From Hyphomicrobium sp. LHD-15 (GTDB taxonomy: Bacteria > Pseudomonadota > Alphaproteobacteria > Rhizobiales > Hyphomicrobiaceae): a stretch of DNA of 64,000 nucleotides. Under the pieces are notes generated by a model that ran no database searches, was not told where the DNA came from, and saw only the letters and a program-made list of their open reading frames with translations. The position numbers were made by a program, and so were the translations under genes. This document shows positions 1,393 to 7,218 of the stretch, piece after piece. Numbering within the stretch: position 1 is the first letter of the stretch; every line of letters begins with the position of its first letter. The stretch spans positions 62,001-126,000 of the forward strand of contig NZ_JAVIFT010000001.1 of the NCBI RefSeq assembly GCF_031157355.1, given 5' to 3'.

Positions 1393-1423
1393 GAGGCCGC
1401 CTTTGCAAGGCCTGACGGACGTC

Positions 1424-1497
1424 CGTTGCGCAGAGCCGTCGCGTTCGCGACGGCTCAACGGCGGTTTCCGCATGTCTGCTTCGGGCCAGAAGCGGAC
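1424..1497. repeat. Palindromic elements downstream of purL
   Basis: Two adjacent hairpins. The first (1433-1456) has arms GAGCCGTCGCG and CGCGACGGCTC around TT and belongs to a 36-base block (1424-1459) that recurs, slightly diverged, at 2242-2277. The second (1474-1482 with 1489-1497) has arms GTCTGCTTC and GAAGCGGAC with one mismatch and a 6-base loop. No U-tract follows, so they look more like dispersed palindromic repeats than terminators, although they may stabilise the purL 3' end. Confidence 0.6.
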
Positions 1498-1631
1498 AAG
1501 CAAACACACCGCTTCGACGCGGCTTAAGCGACCGCATCTTTAACCGCGGGCAAGAGACGACGCATCCCGAACAACAGGGATCGCGCCTCTTGCGATGCCG
1601 CGCTATTTTTTATTTGCTCCGAGCGACGACG

Positions 1632-1934
1632 TCAGCCGGGTAAGCACAACCAAGCGCCCAGGCAGGTTTTGGGTGTCGACACCTTGCATGCCATCTGCCA
1701 AGAGCGACACGTCGTTGTACCCGACCCGTCTTCGCACTTCGTGTGGACAGGGCCTTTGCCCTCGCGGCCCTGCCCATAAATGATGTTCGCAAGACCGTTC
1801 GTCGCGAAGGTCTCGGCGATACCGCGGGTCACAGCTTCGCCGACCGACCCGACTTTGACGCAATCGGCTTGAGCCGACGCCGAAAGTGCACAGATCGCTG
1901 CCGTGGCGGCTAAGCCGAGCTTGAAAATACGCAT
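1632..1934 (-). CDS. Small secreted Cys-containing protein, unknown
   Basis: A 100-residue protein. The start is set at the ATG ending at 1934 because GAGGGG lies a few bases upstream and an N-terminal signal peptide (MRIFKLGLAATAAICALSASAQA) begins there; the frame is open farther upstream but that part looks non-coding. The mature part has six Cys (DCVKVG, HTKCED, TTCRSW, MACKVS, KTCLG, LCLPG), suggesting a disulfide-stabilised periplasmic or exported protein. I do not recognise the family. Between its start and the next gene lie about 425 bases carrying a second copy of a palindromic repeat. Confidence 0.7.
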   Translation of the reverse strand: MRIFKLGLAATAAICALSASAQADCVKVGSVGEAVTRGIAETFATNGLANIIYGQGREGKGPVHTKCEDGSGTTTCRSWQMACKVSTPKTCLGAWLCLPG

Positions 1935-2359
1935 TTGCCCCTCAGTAAAATGACCTAATTCCTGCCTGGAAACTAGGTCAGCGCGTGGCCTTCGACAACA
2001 GAGTCGGCCTGCTGCAGGCTCGTTTATCCCGCAAGGAACCTGAAAGCGTGCCGCATTTGTCACGCATCCGGCGGCCTGGCCTAAAACTCGAAGTAATGCT
2101 CGCGTTCGAAGCGAAAACATTGAACGCCGTTGCCCGATTGCCCGCCGAACCGGGCGTGAGTTCAAAGAACCTCTTCGACACAATCAGGCATGGCCGGAAA
2201 CGGCTGCTGATCCTTCTACCTTGCGCGTGGAACCCGCACTTCGTTGCGCAGAGCCGTCGTGTTCGCGACCGCTCTCCGGCTGATAAGATCACGCGCGAGG
2301 CAACCGCTGGCCAATTCTATGATTGCGATCGCAATGTGTGAAAAAGCGTCAGCGCGACG
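1935..2359. other. Intergenic stretch with one repeat copy
   Basis: No gene is supported here. The stretch holds the promoter region of the leftward gene ending at 1632, the second copy of the purL-downstream palindrome at 2242-2277, and a perfect 14-base palindrome ATTGCGATCGCAAT at 2322-2335. A 118-codon rightward frame crosses it but runs through the repeat and has no ribosome binding site, so it was not called. Confidence 0.5.
2242..2277. repeat. Second copy of purL-downstream palindrome
   Basis: The 36-base block matches 1424-1459 closely: both begin CGTTGCGCAGAGCCGTCG and continue GTTCGCGAC. In this copy the inner hairpin arms have decayed (C to T in the left arm, G to C in the right arm). 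Two copies 800 bases apart, both intergenic, indicate a dispersed repeat rather than a gene-specific terminator. Confidence 0.6.
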
Positions 2360-2833
2360 TTAGGGCAGAACCAACTGGCCTTTGTATTTGCCGCCGAACA
2401 GGGTGTCCGTCAGCCCCTCGTACATGTACGTGCCGCCGCCACTGGCCCCTTCGTATTTGCCCGTGCCGCCGGTGTACTTGTACGTATATTCTTTGAGATG
2501 TGAGCCCTCCTCCCAAGTCATGGATGCCTTGTCTCCGTCCTTATAGTTGTTGGCGCAGGTCCCGGCCCCCTTCCAACTCCCGTCAGGCATGTACTCGTAT
2601 TTTCCAACGCAATCCTGAGTTAACTTCGGTGCGGTGGAGTCATCGGGGATGAGGACGCATCGTTGGGTAAGATCGACCAACTTGTGTCCCTTGTCAGGCT
2701 CCGACTCTTTCAAATTGTCGTTGACGCAAGCGATGGCGCCCGCTTCGTCGATGCTCTCGCCTGCAATTGCCAATCCACCGCCAAAAATAAACATCGTTGC
2801 AATTAATTTAGCTAATAGCTGCTTCAGGCTCAT
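2360..2833 (-). CDS. Secreted protein with Gly/Tyr-rich C-terminal half, unknown
   Basis: A 157-residue protein with a clear signal peptide (MSLKQLLAKLIATMFIFGGGLAIAG) and four Cys in the mature part (IACVND, QRCVLI, QDCVGK, GTCANN). The second half is rich in short beta-like segments with Gly, Lys and Tyr (YKYTGGTGKYEGASGGG, GKYKGQLVLP), compatible with a small beta-barrel or lipocalin-like fold. The start is fixed by AGGAGG six bases upstream of ATG. It lies about 50 bases downstream of the diheme cytochrome gene on the same strand and may share its transcript. I cannot assign a function. Confidence 0.8.
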   Translation of the reverse strand: MSLKQLLAKLIATMFIFGGGLAIAGESIDEAGAIACVNDNLKESEPDKGHKLVDLTQRCVLIPDDSTAPKLTQDCVGKYEYMPDGSWKGAGTCANNYKDGDKASMTWEEGSHLKEYTYKYTGGTGKYEGASGGGTYMYEGLTDTLFGGKYKGQLVLP

Positions 2834-2887
2834 GGTGTCCTCCTGTGTTGCAGAACACGTTGCCGTAGAAGATGCCGTTGCTTTGGC

Positions 2888-3532
2888 TCAGGAGTTCGGA
2901 CAAGCCGCTCCCGCGTCGGCCCATGCCTGGATCAGCGCGCCGAACTCCTTCTGAGTTCCCGGTGCGGGCTCGCGCCCTTTCCCCGGAGCCCAACCCCAGC
3001 CGACCAGCGTATCCTCGGCCATGTGGTGGATCAGCTCCTGCATGGACTTCCCGCCGTTGCGTTGCGGATCCTTGATCTGCTGGCAAATCTCGCCGAGCGT
3101 CTTGCCAAGCCATGCCATCTCGACCGGCGCAATATGCCATTGAGGGTGCCCCGGCACTCCGAAACGCACGCCAGCCGGATCAAAGTTCGCCTGACCATGG
3201 CACGTGTTGCAACGCATCCCGATGGCGCCCATACCGTCCTCTCCGCGCGTCACTAACGGCTGATGGGGGCGGTGGTCGTCGCCTTGTGCCGGGCGGTTGC
3301 CGGGCGGATGGCAATTCGTGCAGCGCGGGTGCTGGATCACGCGACCCGCTTCCTCAAACAACGCAATGGATCGCGCGGACGAATCTTTCAGGTGATCGAA
3401 GGCGGAGACGGGCTTCAATGATTGCCGGTTGCGCGTTTCGCCGGCGGCCACCGACCAACCTGCCAGTGCGGCGACCGCGCAGACGCCCCAAACCCTGAAC
3501 AGATTGCGCGAGGAGAAGACAACCGCCATCAT
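2888..3532 (-). CDS. Diheme cytochrome c (isoquinoline 1-oxidoreductase subunit-like)
   Basis: A 214-residue secreted protein with two c-type heme sites, CTNCH (residues 71-75) and CNTCH (108-112), after an N-terminal signal or anchor around residues 11-31. Segments such as HPRCTNCHPPGNRP, PAGVRFGVPGHPQWH and GTQKEFGALIQAWADAG recall proteins annotated in proteobacteria as isoquinoline 1-oxidoreductase subunit, which are really periplasmic diheme cytochromes that may accept electrons from molybdenum hydroxylases. No molybdenum hydroxylase gene lies nearby. The start has tandem ATGs preceded by GGAGG. The family call is good; the redox partner is unknown. Confidence 0.85.
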   Translation of the reverse strand: MMAVVFSSRNLFRVWGVCAVAALAGWSVAAGETRNRQSLKPVSAFDHLKDSSARSIALFEEAGRVIQHPRCTNCHPPGNRPAQGDDHRPHQPLVTRGEDGMGAIGMRCNTCHGQANFDPAGVRFGVPGHPQWHIAPVEMAWLGKTLGEICQQIKDPQRNGGKSMQELIHHMAEDTLVGWGWAPGKGREPAPGTQKEFGALIQAWADAGAACPNS

Positions 3533-3747
3533 TCAACCCTCCAAGCAGCGCACCGCGACGAGGATTGCGACGCGGTTGCAATGACAGGCGCGACAGCGGC
3601 AGGTTTTGCCGTTCCTCGCGCGATCGATGATGGAAAAGCTCGCCATTCACGCCTCGTGAATCCCAAGGCACTCGCCTCATAGCGCAACGTGCGACGGCGG
3701 GAATGGTTCAGCCGGTTGTGCTCGGCTCGGCAGCAACGCCTCGCGCC

Positions 3748-4599
3748 TCACAGCCCGAGAAGCGCGCTCGCGATGCCGTTGATCGCGAGGTCGATCTCGG
3801 CGCTCTTGTCGTCGCCGTCGCCGATGAACCACGCGGCGGACAGGCCGGTCCAAGCGACAATCCACTCGAGCATGCGAACCGGCTCGACTTGCGCCGTCTC
3901 CGCCACGATCTCGAGACGGGATTGCAAACGGCCCGGCAGAACGCCGACCGGCCGGCTTGGATCGCTCAAATCCGGGTTCGTGAAGATGTTGGCAAAGTCG
4001 AAGGCCCTCTCGCCGAGCAGGCCATGCGGATCGATTGCCAGCCAACCCCGCTCGCCGAAATCGAGGACGTTCTCGTGGTGGAGGTCGCCGTGGAGCGCCG
4101 TGACGCATCGCGGTTCCGACAGCAGTCTGCGGGCGGTGACGGCCGCCTTTGCAAGATCGGCATGTTGACCGGCGATATCGAAAAGCGGCTGAAACCACAC
4201 GTCGAGCGGATTGAGATCGGGAGTGGGCTCGCGCCGCGCGGTGTGCAAGCGCGCTGCAGTCTGGCAGAGGATCCGACAGGCTTCGCCATCGTGCCCCGAG
4301 CGCGCCATATCGGCCAGGTCTCGCACGCCAAACGCCCGCTCCAACAGCAAAGCCTTGTCGTCAAACGCGAGCACTTTCGCGGCGCCGTCTCCATTCCACC
4401 AGCGCATCAATTCGTATCCGCGCCGCTCGTCGGGTATTCGCGCGACCTTGAGCACCGCGGGCGCACCGTTTCGGCGGACCGGAAGAACCCAGCTGGAGTG
4501 GGTCGTCGTGAGCGCGCCGTCGGGCTTCAGTCCCCACGTCTCGATGAACTCCAGGACTTCGGACGCCAAGACATCCTGCGAACTCAATGGATCATCCAT
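3748..4599 (-). CDS. Aminoglycoside/hydroxyurea phosphotransferase-family kinase
   Basis: A 283-residue APH-fold small-molecule kinase resembling the streptomycin 6-kinase/hydroxyurea kinase family. Visible are the ATP-lobe lysine in PAVLKVAR, the catalytic loop HGDLHHENVL and the metal-binding IDPHG, followed by GERAFDFANIF typical of that family. The length is normal. It lies 15 bases downstream of the aldehyde dehydrogenase gene on the same strand, so the two are probably cotranscribed. Chromosomal members are common and many have unknown substrates, so antibiotic resistance is possible but not shown. Confidence 0.85.
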   Translation of the reverse strand: MDDPLSSQDVLASEVLEFIETWGLKPDGALTTTHSSWVLPVRRNGAPAVLKVARIPDERRGYELMRWWNGDGAAKVLAFDDKALLLERAFGVRDLADMARSGHDGEACRILCQTAARLHTARREPTPDLNPLDVWFQPLFDIAGQHADLAKAAVTARRLLSEPRCVTALHGDLHHENVLDFGERGWLAIDPHGLLGERAFDFANIFTNPDLSDPSRPVGVLPGRLQSRLEIVAETAQVEPVRMLEWIVAWTGLSAAWFIGDGDDKSAEIDLAINGIASALLGL

Positions 4600-4614
4600 T
4601 CCGCTTTGGGTGGG

Positions 4615-6042
4615 TCACTCCCCCCAGCCGCCGATGGCCTTGACCTCGAGGTATTCCTCGAGGCCGAAGCGGCCCCACTCGCGGCCGTTGCCGGATTGCT
4701 TGAAGCCCCCGAACGGCGCACGGCGATCGTTCATCACGCCATTCAGATTGACGTTGCCCGCGCGAATGCGGCGCGCAACGCGACGCGCCCGCTCGATATC
4801 GGACGACGACACGTAACCCGCCAATCCATACGGCGTGTCGTTAGCGATGCGTACGGCGTCGTCCTCGTCCCTGTAGGGCACGATCGACAGCACGGGACCG
4901 AAGATCTCCTCACGCGCGATCGTCATCTCGGGCGTGACGTCCGCGAACACCGTCGGGCGCACGTAGAAGCCCTTTTTCAATCCCTCGGGGCGTCCGGTGC
5001 CGCCGGCCGCGAGCGTCGCGCCTTCGGCGATGCCGCTTTCGATCAGGCGCTGGATCTTGTCCCACTGCGTGCGATTCACGACCGGGCCAAGATCGATGCC
5101 TGCCGCGCGCGGATCGCCGACGCGCAGACTGTTTGCCACGGCGGCCGCGATCTCGGCCGCCTCGTTCATTCTATCCGCCGGCACCAGCATGCGCGTCGGC
5201 GCGTTGCAGGACTGGCCGGAGTTGTTGAAACAGTGGCGTACGCCGCCGCCAACTGCCTTCTCGAAGTCGGCGTCCGGCAGAATGATGTTCGCAGACTTGC
5301 CGCCGAGCTCCTGCGTCACGCGCTTGACGCTCGGCGCAGCGCGGATCGCCACGTCGATGCCGGCGCGGGTCGAGCCGGTGAACGAGATCATGTCGAGACC
5401 TGTGTGAGCGCTCATGGCCGCTCCGACGTCGGGCCCGAGACCGTTCACGAGGTTGAACACGCCGGCCGGCACGCCCGCCTCGTCCAACACCTCCGCCAGA
5501 ATGAGCGCGCAAGTGGGTGTGAACTCCGACGGCTTCAGCACCATCGTGCAGCCGGCGGCGAGCGCAGGCGCCACCTTGCAGGCGATCTGATTGAGCGGCC
5601 AATTCCATGGCGTGATCATGCCGACGACGCCCACGGCCTCGCGAACTATCTGCGCATGCCCGATCCGTTCCTCGAAGGCATAGGCCTTCAGCGCTTCGAG
5701 GGTCGTCATCAGGTGGCTCAAGCCGGCGCCGGCGTGCGCCCGCTCGGCCAGCGTCAGCGGCGCGCCCATCTCGTCGGACACGGCGGCCCCGATGTCCTTC
5801 ATGCGCTTCGAATAGAGGGCCATGATGCGTTCGAGGAGCGCGATGCGGTCCTCGCGCGACGTGGCTGCGAAGGCCGGCCAAGCGGCACGTGCAGCGGCAA
5901 CCGCGCAGTCGACATCGGCGGCGCTGCCGATCGCGATTTCGTAGAGGGTTTCCTCCGTGGCAGGATTAACGACCGGGAAGGTTTTCGGCTGCTCCGGCGC
6001 AACCCACTTGCCCCCGATGTAGAATTTCGACCGATCGACCAT
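4615..6042 (-). CDS. NAD(P)-dependent aldehyde dehydrogenase family protein
   Basis: A 475-residue cytoplasmic ALDH-superfamily enzyme oxidising an aldehyde to its acid. Catalytic features are complete: TPWNWP with the conserved Asn (residue 147), FTGSTRAG of the cofactor-binding region (221-228), general base Glu246 in ELGGKSAN, nucleophile Cys279 in NNSGQSCNAP, and EEIFGPVL near the C terminus. The length is typical. It heads a two-gene unit with the kinase at 3748. The substrate cannot be read from the sequence. A long frame on the opposite strand spans both genes but has no family resemblance. Confidence 0.93.
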   Translation of the reverse strand: MVDRSKFYIGGKWVAPEQPKTFPVVNPATEETLYEIAIGSAADVDCAVAAARAAWPAFAATSREDRIALLERIMALYSKRMKDIGAAVSDEMGAPLTLAERAHAGAGLSHLMTTLEALKAYAFEERIGHAQIVREAVGVVGMITPWNWPLNQIACKVAPALAAGCTMVLKPSEFTPTCALILAEVLDEAGVPAGVFNLVNGLGPDVGAAMSAHTGLDMISFTGSTRAGIDVAIRAAPSVKRVTQELGGKSANIILPDADFEKAVGGGVRHCFNNSGQSCNAPTRMLVPADRMNEAAEIAAAVANSLRVGDPRAAGIDLGPVVNRTQWDKIQRLIESGIAEGATLAAGGTGRPEGLKKGFYVRPTVFADVTPEMTIAREEIFGPVLSIVPYRDEDDAVRIANDTPYGLAGYVSSSDIERARRVARRIRAGNVNLNGVMNDRRAPFGGFKQSGNGREWGRFGLEEYLEVKAIGGWGE

Positions 6043-6169
6043 CTCGCTGATCCAAATGCCTTAGTTGCCGGCGCACTCATGGCATGGCGCGCCGGGAGAT
6101 GCCAGCCTTGGGGCGCGGGGCGGGTTTGCTCGCCTCGCATGCCGCAAACGCTCGAGGAGAGACACGATT

Positions 6170-6306
6170 AGAAATAGAAAAGTAACTTCGTTTTTGATTT
6201 TAATTTTCTCATTCTTTTCTAGTTTCGCCGCGAAAACTTCCCTGGATAGATAAAAGTTTAAGTAGATTGGCTCATGCTGGCTCTCAGGTTTTTGGGAGTT
6301 TCAGTC
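6170..6306. promoter_or_regulatory. AT-rich divergent intergenic region
   Basis: Between the leftward aldehyde dehydrogenase and the rightward repeat protein lies a marked AT-rich tract (about 6170-6265, with runs such as GATTTTAATTTTC) in an otherwise GC-rich window. It probably contains the promoter of the repeat-protein gene. Nothing coding is supported. Confidence 0.4.
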
Positions 6307-7110
6307 ATGCGTACCGCAACCGCCTGCGGGCTGCTCGTCGCAGCTCTCGTTCCACTGTCTTTGGATCACTATCCGAGCCCCGCGCCTGAGGCGCGTATCT
6401 CGATGCCAACGCTCGGAAGCGAGGTTCAGTCCTCGATTCTGACCGCGCTCTTCACGGCCCGGCGCAACGCCGAGATCAGCAGATCTCTCGCCAAGGTCGC
6501 GATCGTGCGCGAAAAGGAGTTCATCGCCGCGCGCAATCGCGAAATCACCCGTTCGATGGCTGCCAGCGCGCTCGCTCGGCCCGCCTTGTACGCGGCAGCG
6601 CGTGCCGACCAGATCGAAGCCTGGCGGAAACCCGCCGCCCGCGTCCAGACCGCCATGTTCGCCGCCGCTCGCAACGCCGAGATCCGCATGGCCATGGCGC
6701 GGCATGAGCGCGTTCGCCCCATGCTGTTTGCCGAAGCGCGCAATCGCGAAATCGAGATGTCGGCGCACAAGGTTGAAACGACGCGGCTCGCGGCTTTCGC
6801 TGCCCAGCGCAACCAGGAGATCGCTTCGTCGATCGAAGCGACCGAGCGCAACCGCCTCGCGATGTTCGCCGAAGCCCGCAACCGTGAGAGCGACGTGAGC
6901 CACGCGCTCGTCGGCCAGCATCGCGCACTGGCGTTTGCCGCCGCCCGCAATGCCGAAATCGAGCTCTCGCTGGCCCGTGTGAAGGGAGAATCCAATTTCG
7001 CCGCCCTCGGCCGTATCGCACCGCACATCTTCGCGGCCGGCCAGATGGAGGGCAGCCGGATCGAAACCGGCAGTATCAACCGCTGGCCCGCCCCCACCAT
7101 CGGCCGCTGA
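6307..7110 (+). CDS. Secreted protein with eight 23-residue tandem repeats
   Basis: A 267-residue protein starting at the ATG at 6307, which has GGGAG upstream and opens a signal-peptide-like segment (MRTATACGLLVAALVPLSL); an ATG at 6274 has no such site. From Thr at 6442 to Ser at 6993 the protein is eight consecutive repeats of exactly 23 residues with no gaps, consensus xxxFaaARNaEIxxS then a variable half ending mostly in Arg. The Ala/Arg/Glu pattern predicts amphipathic helices. The DNA has diverged between units while phase and key residues (F, ARN, EI) are kept, suggesting selection on protein structure. A degenerate ninth unit may follow. The family is not recognised. Confidence 0.8.
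   Translation: MRTATACGLLVAALVPLSLDHYPSPAPEARISMPTLGSEVQSSILTALFTARRNAEISRSLAKVAIVREKEFIAARNREITRSMAASALARPALYAAARADQIEAWRKPAARVQTAMFAAARNAEIRMAMARHERVRPMLFAEARNREIEMSAHKVETTRLAAFAAQRNQEIASSIEATERNRLAMFAEARNRESDVSHALVGQHRALAFAAARNAEIELSLARVKGESNFAALGRIAPHIFAAGQMEGSRIETGSINRWPAPTIGR
6442..6993 (+). repeat. Eight 69-base coding repeats
   Basis: Unit starts are 6442, 6511, 6580, 6649, 6718, 6787, 6856 and 6925. Each encodes 23 residues with F or Y at position 4 (one I-shifted unit keeps F), ARN or a close variant at 7-9 and usually EI at 11-12. Unit 3 is the most diverged (YAAARADQIEAW). Nucleotide identity between units is visibly lower than conservation of the key residues. Confidence 0.85.
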
Positions 7111-7164
7111 TCGCAAAACTGCCCGCACAAGCCTTTTCCTTCGTTTTCTCCCCCTGTAGACTGC

Positions 7165-7195
7165 ATCAAGGCCGCCTTGCCCGGGCGGCCTTGAT
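7165..7195 (+). terminator. Strong hairpin upstream of bolA
   Basis: A perfect 12-base stem (ATCAAGGCCGCC with GGCGGCCTTGAT, 7-base loop) lies 24 bases before the bolA start. It is followed by CGTTTC rather than a long U-tract, so it may terminate transcription from the repeat-protein gene or act as a leader structure for bolA. Confidence 0.5.
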
Positions 7196-7218
7196 CGTTT
7201 CAGGAGAACACGCCCCCA

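Follow-up and report, generated by a model that had tools for sequence, protein, structure and literature searches.

The window analysed here, a 64,000-nucleotide stretch of the Hyphomicrobium sp. LHD-15 genome, contains a gene for a 267-residue repeat protein. The features of this gene and its upstream region are as follows.

6307..7110, + strand: coding sequence of the repeat protein (267 amino acids), from the list of open reading frames, with GGAG no more than 20 bases 5' of the start in 7/7 genomes of the genus
6307..6396, + strand: presumed signal peptide or signal anchor, the first ~30 residues, from conservation, its signal nature judged by eye
6442..6993, + strand: eight 23-residue units in the register of the original prediction, the third degenerate
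6451-7002, + strand: the same array in the core register, in which each 16-residue core starts at its F, the first at 6451
7060..7077, + strand: C-terminal motif I-E-T-G-S-I, with small changes only in all relatives read
6294..6298, + strand: likely ribosome-binding site GGGAG
6246..6260, + strand: upstream element ATAGATAAAAGTTTA, its ATAGATAAA part found in 6/7 genomes of the genus and absent from G006
6171..6186, + strand: second upstream element GAAATAGAAAAGTAAC, TAAC with an A-rich lead, found in 6/7 genomes of the genus and absent from G006

The start at 6307 is aligned in six of six proteins, and an alternative in-frame ATG lies upstream at 6274. Nine residues are invariant in all six N-termini (M1, R2, G8, L10, A12, L14, P16, L17 and D20). 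The two upstream elements (within 6171-6260; GAAA..AAAAAGTAAC and ATAGATAAA.xTTTA) are retained in six of the seven genomes, with the coding sequence only ~50-60% identical. The genome holds one exact copy of the upstream element and two with one mismatch, compared to 1 for the control; the frames around the two extra copies revealed nothing that could be linked to the element, and the idea of a regulon was dropped.

The gene was found in seven of eight genomes of the genus. Identity to the window protein is 59% in H. zavarzinii and 50% in two Hyphomicrobium metagenome assemblies. The seven genomes share the order aldehyde dehydrogenase, repeat gene, BolA, Grx4 and PqiA-like (split across two contigs in G003). 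In one of them, G006 (locus L007), the order is the same and the protein is a naturally reduced form, 214 residues long and left with two clear cores. The eighth genome, G005, also lacked a match to the neighboring Grx4 at an E limit of 1e-30; because that match is missing too, the failure to find the repeat gene says little, and G005 was not used as a true absence.

The interval between PurL and BolA that houses the gene (1393-7218 in the window) is variable. It measures 5.8 kb in the window and 4.4-6.3 kb in the three other loci of the genus that reach PurL (L014, L015 and L017), all with the dehydrogenase and repeat gene inside. In three genomes of g11, one of two further genera with relatives of the repeat protein, it measures 4.7-5.3 kb and holds no match to either gene; the g11 repeat gene is located elsewhere in the genome. 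Among 13 Grx4 loci in other genera, PurL was seen in six, at 28-153 bases from BolA in four (L117, L118, L125 and L128) and ~0.7-0.8 kb in two (L126 and L127), and no repeat-like frame was seen in the 12 of the 13 loci that were scanned. A genus-specific insertion between an ancestral PurL-BolA pair was rejected on account of the interval in the three g11 genomes. The same interval of the window contains, at 3748-4599 on the - strand, a gene matching APH(6)-I aminoglycoside phosphotransferase (469 bits against an NCBIfam cut-off of 460; Pfam PF04655), which is a chromosomal relative of streptomycin kinase.

Eight gapless units of 23 residues had been predicted from the sequence, and this is borne out: residues 46-229 are encoded by eight 69-base units that translate to 23-mers. 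When the protein was scored against itself with BLOSUM62 at lags of 1-59, lag 23 was highest (1.17 per position), followed by lag 46 (1.12), with the next best at -0.08; in 2000 shuffles, the best lag had a mean of -0.12 (sd 0.08) and a maximum of 0.24. The repeat is real and far above chance. Mean identity between units is only 39% of residues (17-52%) and 50% of bases (41-64%), which indicates an old array rather than recent duplication of DNA. The original prediction also placed F, ARN and EI in phase throughout. Counted by eye, R is present in all eight units and F (Y in unit 3) and RN in seven, whereas the full ARN is present in only five and EI in six, the exceptions being QI in unit 3 and ES in unit 7. 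Unit 3, YAAARADQIEAWRKPAARVQTAM, is the degenerate one; it did not reach the threshold of the unit scan, which listed seven units in the window protein. The description of the mature protein as almost wholly repeats was slightly strong, as the array covers 184 of 267 residues, or ~78% of what follows a presumed 30-residue signal peptide.

Codon-position, unit-identity and charge-pair tests were conducted on four proteins (from the window, G004, G002 and G001). Differences over the 184 codons were commonest at codon position 3 in six of six genome pairs (for example, 49, 53 and 91 at positions 1, 2 and 3 between G000 and G004), consistent with the predicted selection on the protein. Units at the same position in different species are 53% identical (n=48), compared to 38% for different units within one genome (n=112), and in 60 of 96 cases the unit most similar to it in another genome was its same-position counterpart. 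The array is old and under selection.

Comparison among relatives defined a conserved 16-residue core, F-x-x-x-R-N-x-E-I-x-x-S-[ILM]-x-x-V, which a position matrix over 16 sequences rendered as F-x-x-[AE]-R-N-[AR]-E-I-x-[AR]-S-[LMI]-A-x-V. The core is 59% identical between orthologous units, compared to 41% for the 7-residue linker (n=48). Several of its best-conserved positions are polar: among 104 units from 13 proteins (G006, both G003 pieces and unit 3 of G007 omitted, weak G014 and G082 units kept), N6 is found in 95, E8 in 93, and R5 and S12 in 85 each. The core scan covered 16 sequences from 15 genomes, with G083 omitted as broken and G087 found only later; units were listed above a threshold of 5, compared to a 95% point of 3.6 for 320 shuffled maxima, one of which reached 11.9.

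The spacing of the units had been expected to be conserved in orthologues, and largely is within the genus. Eight units at exactly 23 residues are present in the window protein and three orthologues; the unit scan listed all eight for G004 and G002, and missed the below-threshold unit 3 of the window protein, of G001 and of the N-terminal G003 piece, which therefore show a listed gap of 46. The exceptions are G007, which has one unit more and in which one gap measures 45 residues instead of the 46 expected of two units, and the reduced G006. The expectation fails in the wider family, since the same motif occurs at other spacings in two other genera, at 17-31 residues where no OmpA domain was seen and at 21-79 residues in OmpA fusions; a fixed design constant of 23 is thus not supported. 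For example, the gap series 23, 20, 31, 23, 20, 24 is identical in five of five g11 proteins, the gaps of G086 are 23 and 17, and those of the OmpA-fused G014 and G082 range from 21 to 79. The conserved object is the 16-residue core, with a spacing mostly fixed within a genus. A helical-phase rule for the spacings was not significant on a rough hand estimate and is not claimed.

The family has a narrow range. Within the taxonomic family, a profile of the proteins of the genus matched 16 of 103 genomes, which represent three of the 25 genera, and a two-unit profile built from those three genera also matched 16 of 103, with G087 replacing G006. The absence of a match to the first profile in the other 22 genera suggests that the protein is dispensable for such an envelope in general. 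Outside the family, no match was found in samples of the order, class and phylum (matched genomes, 6/397, 1/385 and 1/398), in runs limited to 19 scored first-look candidates for each genome, which may miss weak relatives. A mobile or viral origin was rejected, as the window protein had no tblastn match among plasmid and phage records. In PHROGs, neither the window protein (at E 0.01) nor the g11 protein of G104 had a match, G086 had two weak matches, and G014 matched three families of unknown function in its OmpA region.

The prediction that the repeat belongs to no named family was sustained: look-ups of the window protein in Pfam, NCBIfam and the sequences of solved structures returned only matches of E 0.2 and above. 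Matches of G086 to Tudor_4 (19.4 bits, cut-off 25.8) and of G001 to DUF7050 (17 bits, cut-off 27) were below cut-off and taken as chance. Among the papers listed in searches of the open-licence literature, none described the family.

The second architecture of the family is a fusion. In the g8 members G014, G082 and G087, the repeats are followed by E-T-G-A-[LI] and then by an OmpA domain (PF00691; E 5.7e-10 to 2.8e-16, above the Pfam cut-off). G083 likewise combines two cores, E-T-G-T-I and an OmpA domain behind a signal-like N-terminus, with stop codons breaking up the frames; its locus, L040, is either a pseudogene or contains sequencing errors. In G086, the contig ends just after E-T-G-T-I. 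The window protein has no OmpA domain (Pfam, E up to 1), and neither do the scanned relatives from g1 and g11. These free-standing versions end shortly after a similar motif, mostly I/L-E-T-G-S-I, with I-E-T-A-S-I in G002 and V-T-G-S-I in three g11 proteins. The two architectures could be explained simply by an OmpA domain that was lost or gained at the E-T-G motif. We rejected E-T-G-[ST]-I as a general export or sorting motif: a looser DNA pattern, which admits some other residues, had 11 sites in the genome compared to 3 in a reversed control, and the 11 comprise the window gene, L106 (exported-looking, with the motif in a linker), L105 (with no E-T-G-[ST]-[IV] frame) and eight other or doubtful short frames. 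The g8 loci L018, L039 and L073 (G014, G082 and G087) also have repeated cysteine-pair inserts between helical cores, such as THCKSASDTSPRC, which could form disulfide-closed loops along a stalk.

The fusions are the strongest hint to location. OmpA-type domains bind peptidoglycan in the proteins studied, and the usual Asp and Arg of the peptidoglycan-binding motif are presumably present in the fused g8 relatives. The joining of the repeats to such a domain points to the periplasm. The N-termini resemble signal peptides by eye, and we infer that the window protein is exported.

The original prediction offered a helical solenoid or a coiled rod, and the rod is favored by structure prediction. 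AlphaFold2 modeled a single helix over residues 38-226 of the window protein; when an orthologue was the query, the helix covered 38-227. Built from four-row alignments, the models had block-mean pLDDT values as high as 96-97 but a pTM of only 0.30-0.32. AlphaFold2 tends toward long single helices for sequences of this kind. At 0.15 nm per residue, a 189-residue helix would give, by arithmetic, a rod of ~28 nm. An alpha-helical solenoid of antiparallel pairs, as in TPR or HEAT proteins, was not supported, as both predictions returned one continuous, unbroken helix of ~190 residues and no Pfam repeat family matched at E up to 1. A fold search returned 31 matches at E up to 10 and none at 0.001.

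Conservation within the core sides with one face of a helix in three genera, centered 48, 57 and 61 degrees from F1 (permutation p 0.024, 0.072 and 0.033) with a best period of 3.7-3.85. Opposite charges three residues apart are in excess in all four proteins tested (16, 19, 21 and 19, compared to shuffle means of 7.2, 6.9, 9.0 and 8.6, with 0 of 1000 shuffles as high), and those four apart are not (4-6, compared to 6.9-8.9 expected from shuffles). Hydrophobic periodicity was computed for 11 of the 16 core-scan sequences. On an aliphatic/aromatic scale, it was not significant in five of five proteins of the genus or in G086 (shuffle p 0.15-0.40), the strongest peaks in the genus lying near 3.8 in four and at 3.28 in one; right-handed coiled coils with hendecads or pentadecads have hydrophobic periods of ~3.67-3.75. 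The g11 proteins peak at 3.9 residues (shuffle p <=0.003 in four of five, 0.077 in the fifth), a period that fits no classical coiled coil. On the Kyte-Doolittle scale, none of the 11 proteins showed significant periodicity. For a regular left-handed heptad coiled coil, which has a period near 3.5, there is no support in this unclear hydrophobic periodicity, none of the five proteins of the genus having a significant peak. Position 21 of the unit is P in 6 of 32 units.

Analogous rods have been described elsewhere. The neck of DC-SIGN and DC-SIGNR reportedly consists of ~7-8 tandem 23-residue units, is mostly helical and forms an extended stalk, each unit being stabilized by an in-chain arginine-glutamate salt bridge and starting with a proline-containing break (PMC5275740). 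The window repeats share the 23-residue tandem unit, which is measured here, the helix, which is predicted here, and the occasional P at position 21. Unlike them, the neck belongs to a primate receptor and reportedly has a heptad Leu/Ile/Val pattern that we did not see in the window repeats. Profile A1 and profile A3, the latter from an alignment of 34 of 47 two-unit windows, gave 0 matches among solved-structure sequences at E up to 1, and the likeness is convergence, not membership. Omp-alpha of Thermotoga is also a long helical rod and proposed periplasmic spacer, but is reported to be ~45-50 nm long and to carry an SLH domain as well as a membrane helix at its C-terminus (PMC5082667, PMC9388160), and neither domain nor membrane helix was matched in the window protein. 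SlpA of Deinococcus has a helical periplasmic stalk of ~28 nm, equal to the length computed here, but is reported as a homotrimer with an SLH domain and a beta-barrel (PMC9388160), in contrast to the window protein, which has no Pfam domain. The window protein has no SLH match in Pfam at E up to 1, and no outer-membrane anchor was identified. Proteins with an OmpA C-terminal domain resemble the g8 relatives, which share that domain, but not the window protein, which lacks it and in which no beta-barrel was identified. The spacer stalks Omp-alpha and SlpA appear to be the closest analogues, along with, by convergence, the DC-SIGN neck.

We tentatively propose, at slightly less than an even chance, that the protein is an exported periplasmic helical stalk of repeated packing modules. 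The body of the protein would be one long alpha-helical rod whose unit consists of the 16-residue core and the freer 7-residue linker, with F1, R5, N6, E8, I9, S12, L/I/M13 and V16 gathered for the most part along one helix face and with R5 and E8, three residues apart, placed for an in-chain salt bridge. In each unit, the conserved face may pack on its equivalent in further copies of the protein, in the manner of the DC-SIGNR neck, or on a partner protein, and the resulting ~28-nm stalk would span or line the periplasm. Packing of this type with a break at the junction, as reported for the DC-SIGNR neck (PMC5275740), could avoid the phase problem. The OmpA domain is missing from the window version, whose chain stops soon after the motif found ahead of that domain in g8. 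The conserved polar R, N, E and S, which would be needless in a pure spacer, count against a stalk, as does the reduction of G006 to two clear units. A broader statement, which we hold with less assurance, is that the family is an undescribed envelope module of the Hyphomicrobiaceae, defined by the 16-residue core around R-N-x-E-I, whose long periplasmic stalks stand alone in two genera and are attached to an OmpA domain in a third, with a spacing reset between genera and nearly frozen within them, and a helix packing that matches no heptad and no established right-handed periodicity.

Alternatively, the protein may be a multivalent docking scaffold, in which each core binds a partner (a protein, a cell-wall fragment or another ligand) and the rod sets out the sites, with length and spacing of little matter. 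We consider this unlikely, though it would explain why the core is kept while spacing ranges over 17-79 residues between and within genera and why polar N6, E8, R5 and S12 are among the most conserved positions; cores 23 residues apart would also face 140 degrees apart on a straight helix (by arithmetic, at 100 degrees per residue). However, the exact spacing of 23 in four proteins of the genus and the identical gap series in the five g11 proteins indicate that spacing is not free. Nor is any neighboring gene common between genera: when nine other genes of the window were searched for in the 13-kb surroundings of the repeat gene at five g11 loci, none had a match.

Two further interpretations are improbable. 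Apolipoproteins have helical repeats near 22-23 residues with a junction proline, and the length of the units and their occasional P21 would suit an amphipathic lipid-binding protein of this 22-mer-like kind on the inner face of the outer membrane or on the inner membrane; yet the conserved face is not a broad hydrophobic strip but bears R5, N6, E8 and S12, and the dimeric apoA-IV chain in the fold search, at E 8.3, is meaningless in a search with no match at E 0.001. An unexported cytoplasmic helical filament or granule-associated protein with a merely signal-peptide-like N-terminus, for which the invariance of nine N-terminal residues (unusual for a signal peptide) and the lack of a clear common cleavage site by eye would speak, is just as doubtful given the more typical-looking signal peptides, judged by eye, of the g11 and g8 relatives and the OmpA domain of the g8 members.

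What is new here is a lineage-restricted core motif, found in two architectures and at spacings that vary between genera. Hyphomicrobium and its near kin are budding, stalk-bearing methylotrophs. If the periplasmic stalk reading is right, the cell envelope of these bacteria would contain a building block that is unnamed and confined to their lineage, and sister genera would provide a clear example of an envelope stalk with and without an OmpA domain. One core motif at many spacings would then be a natural series for testing helix periodicity and how the length of such a stalk is set.
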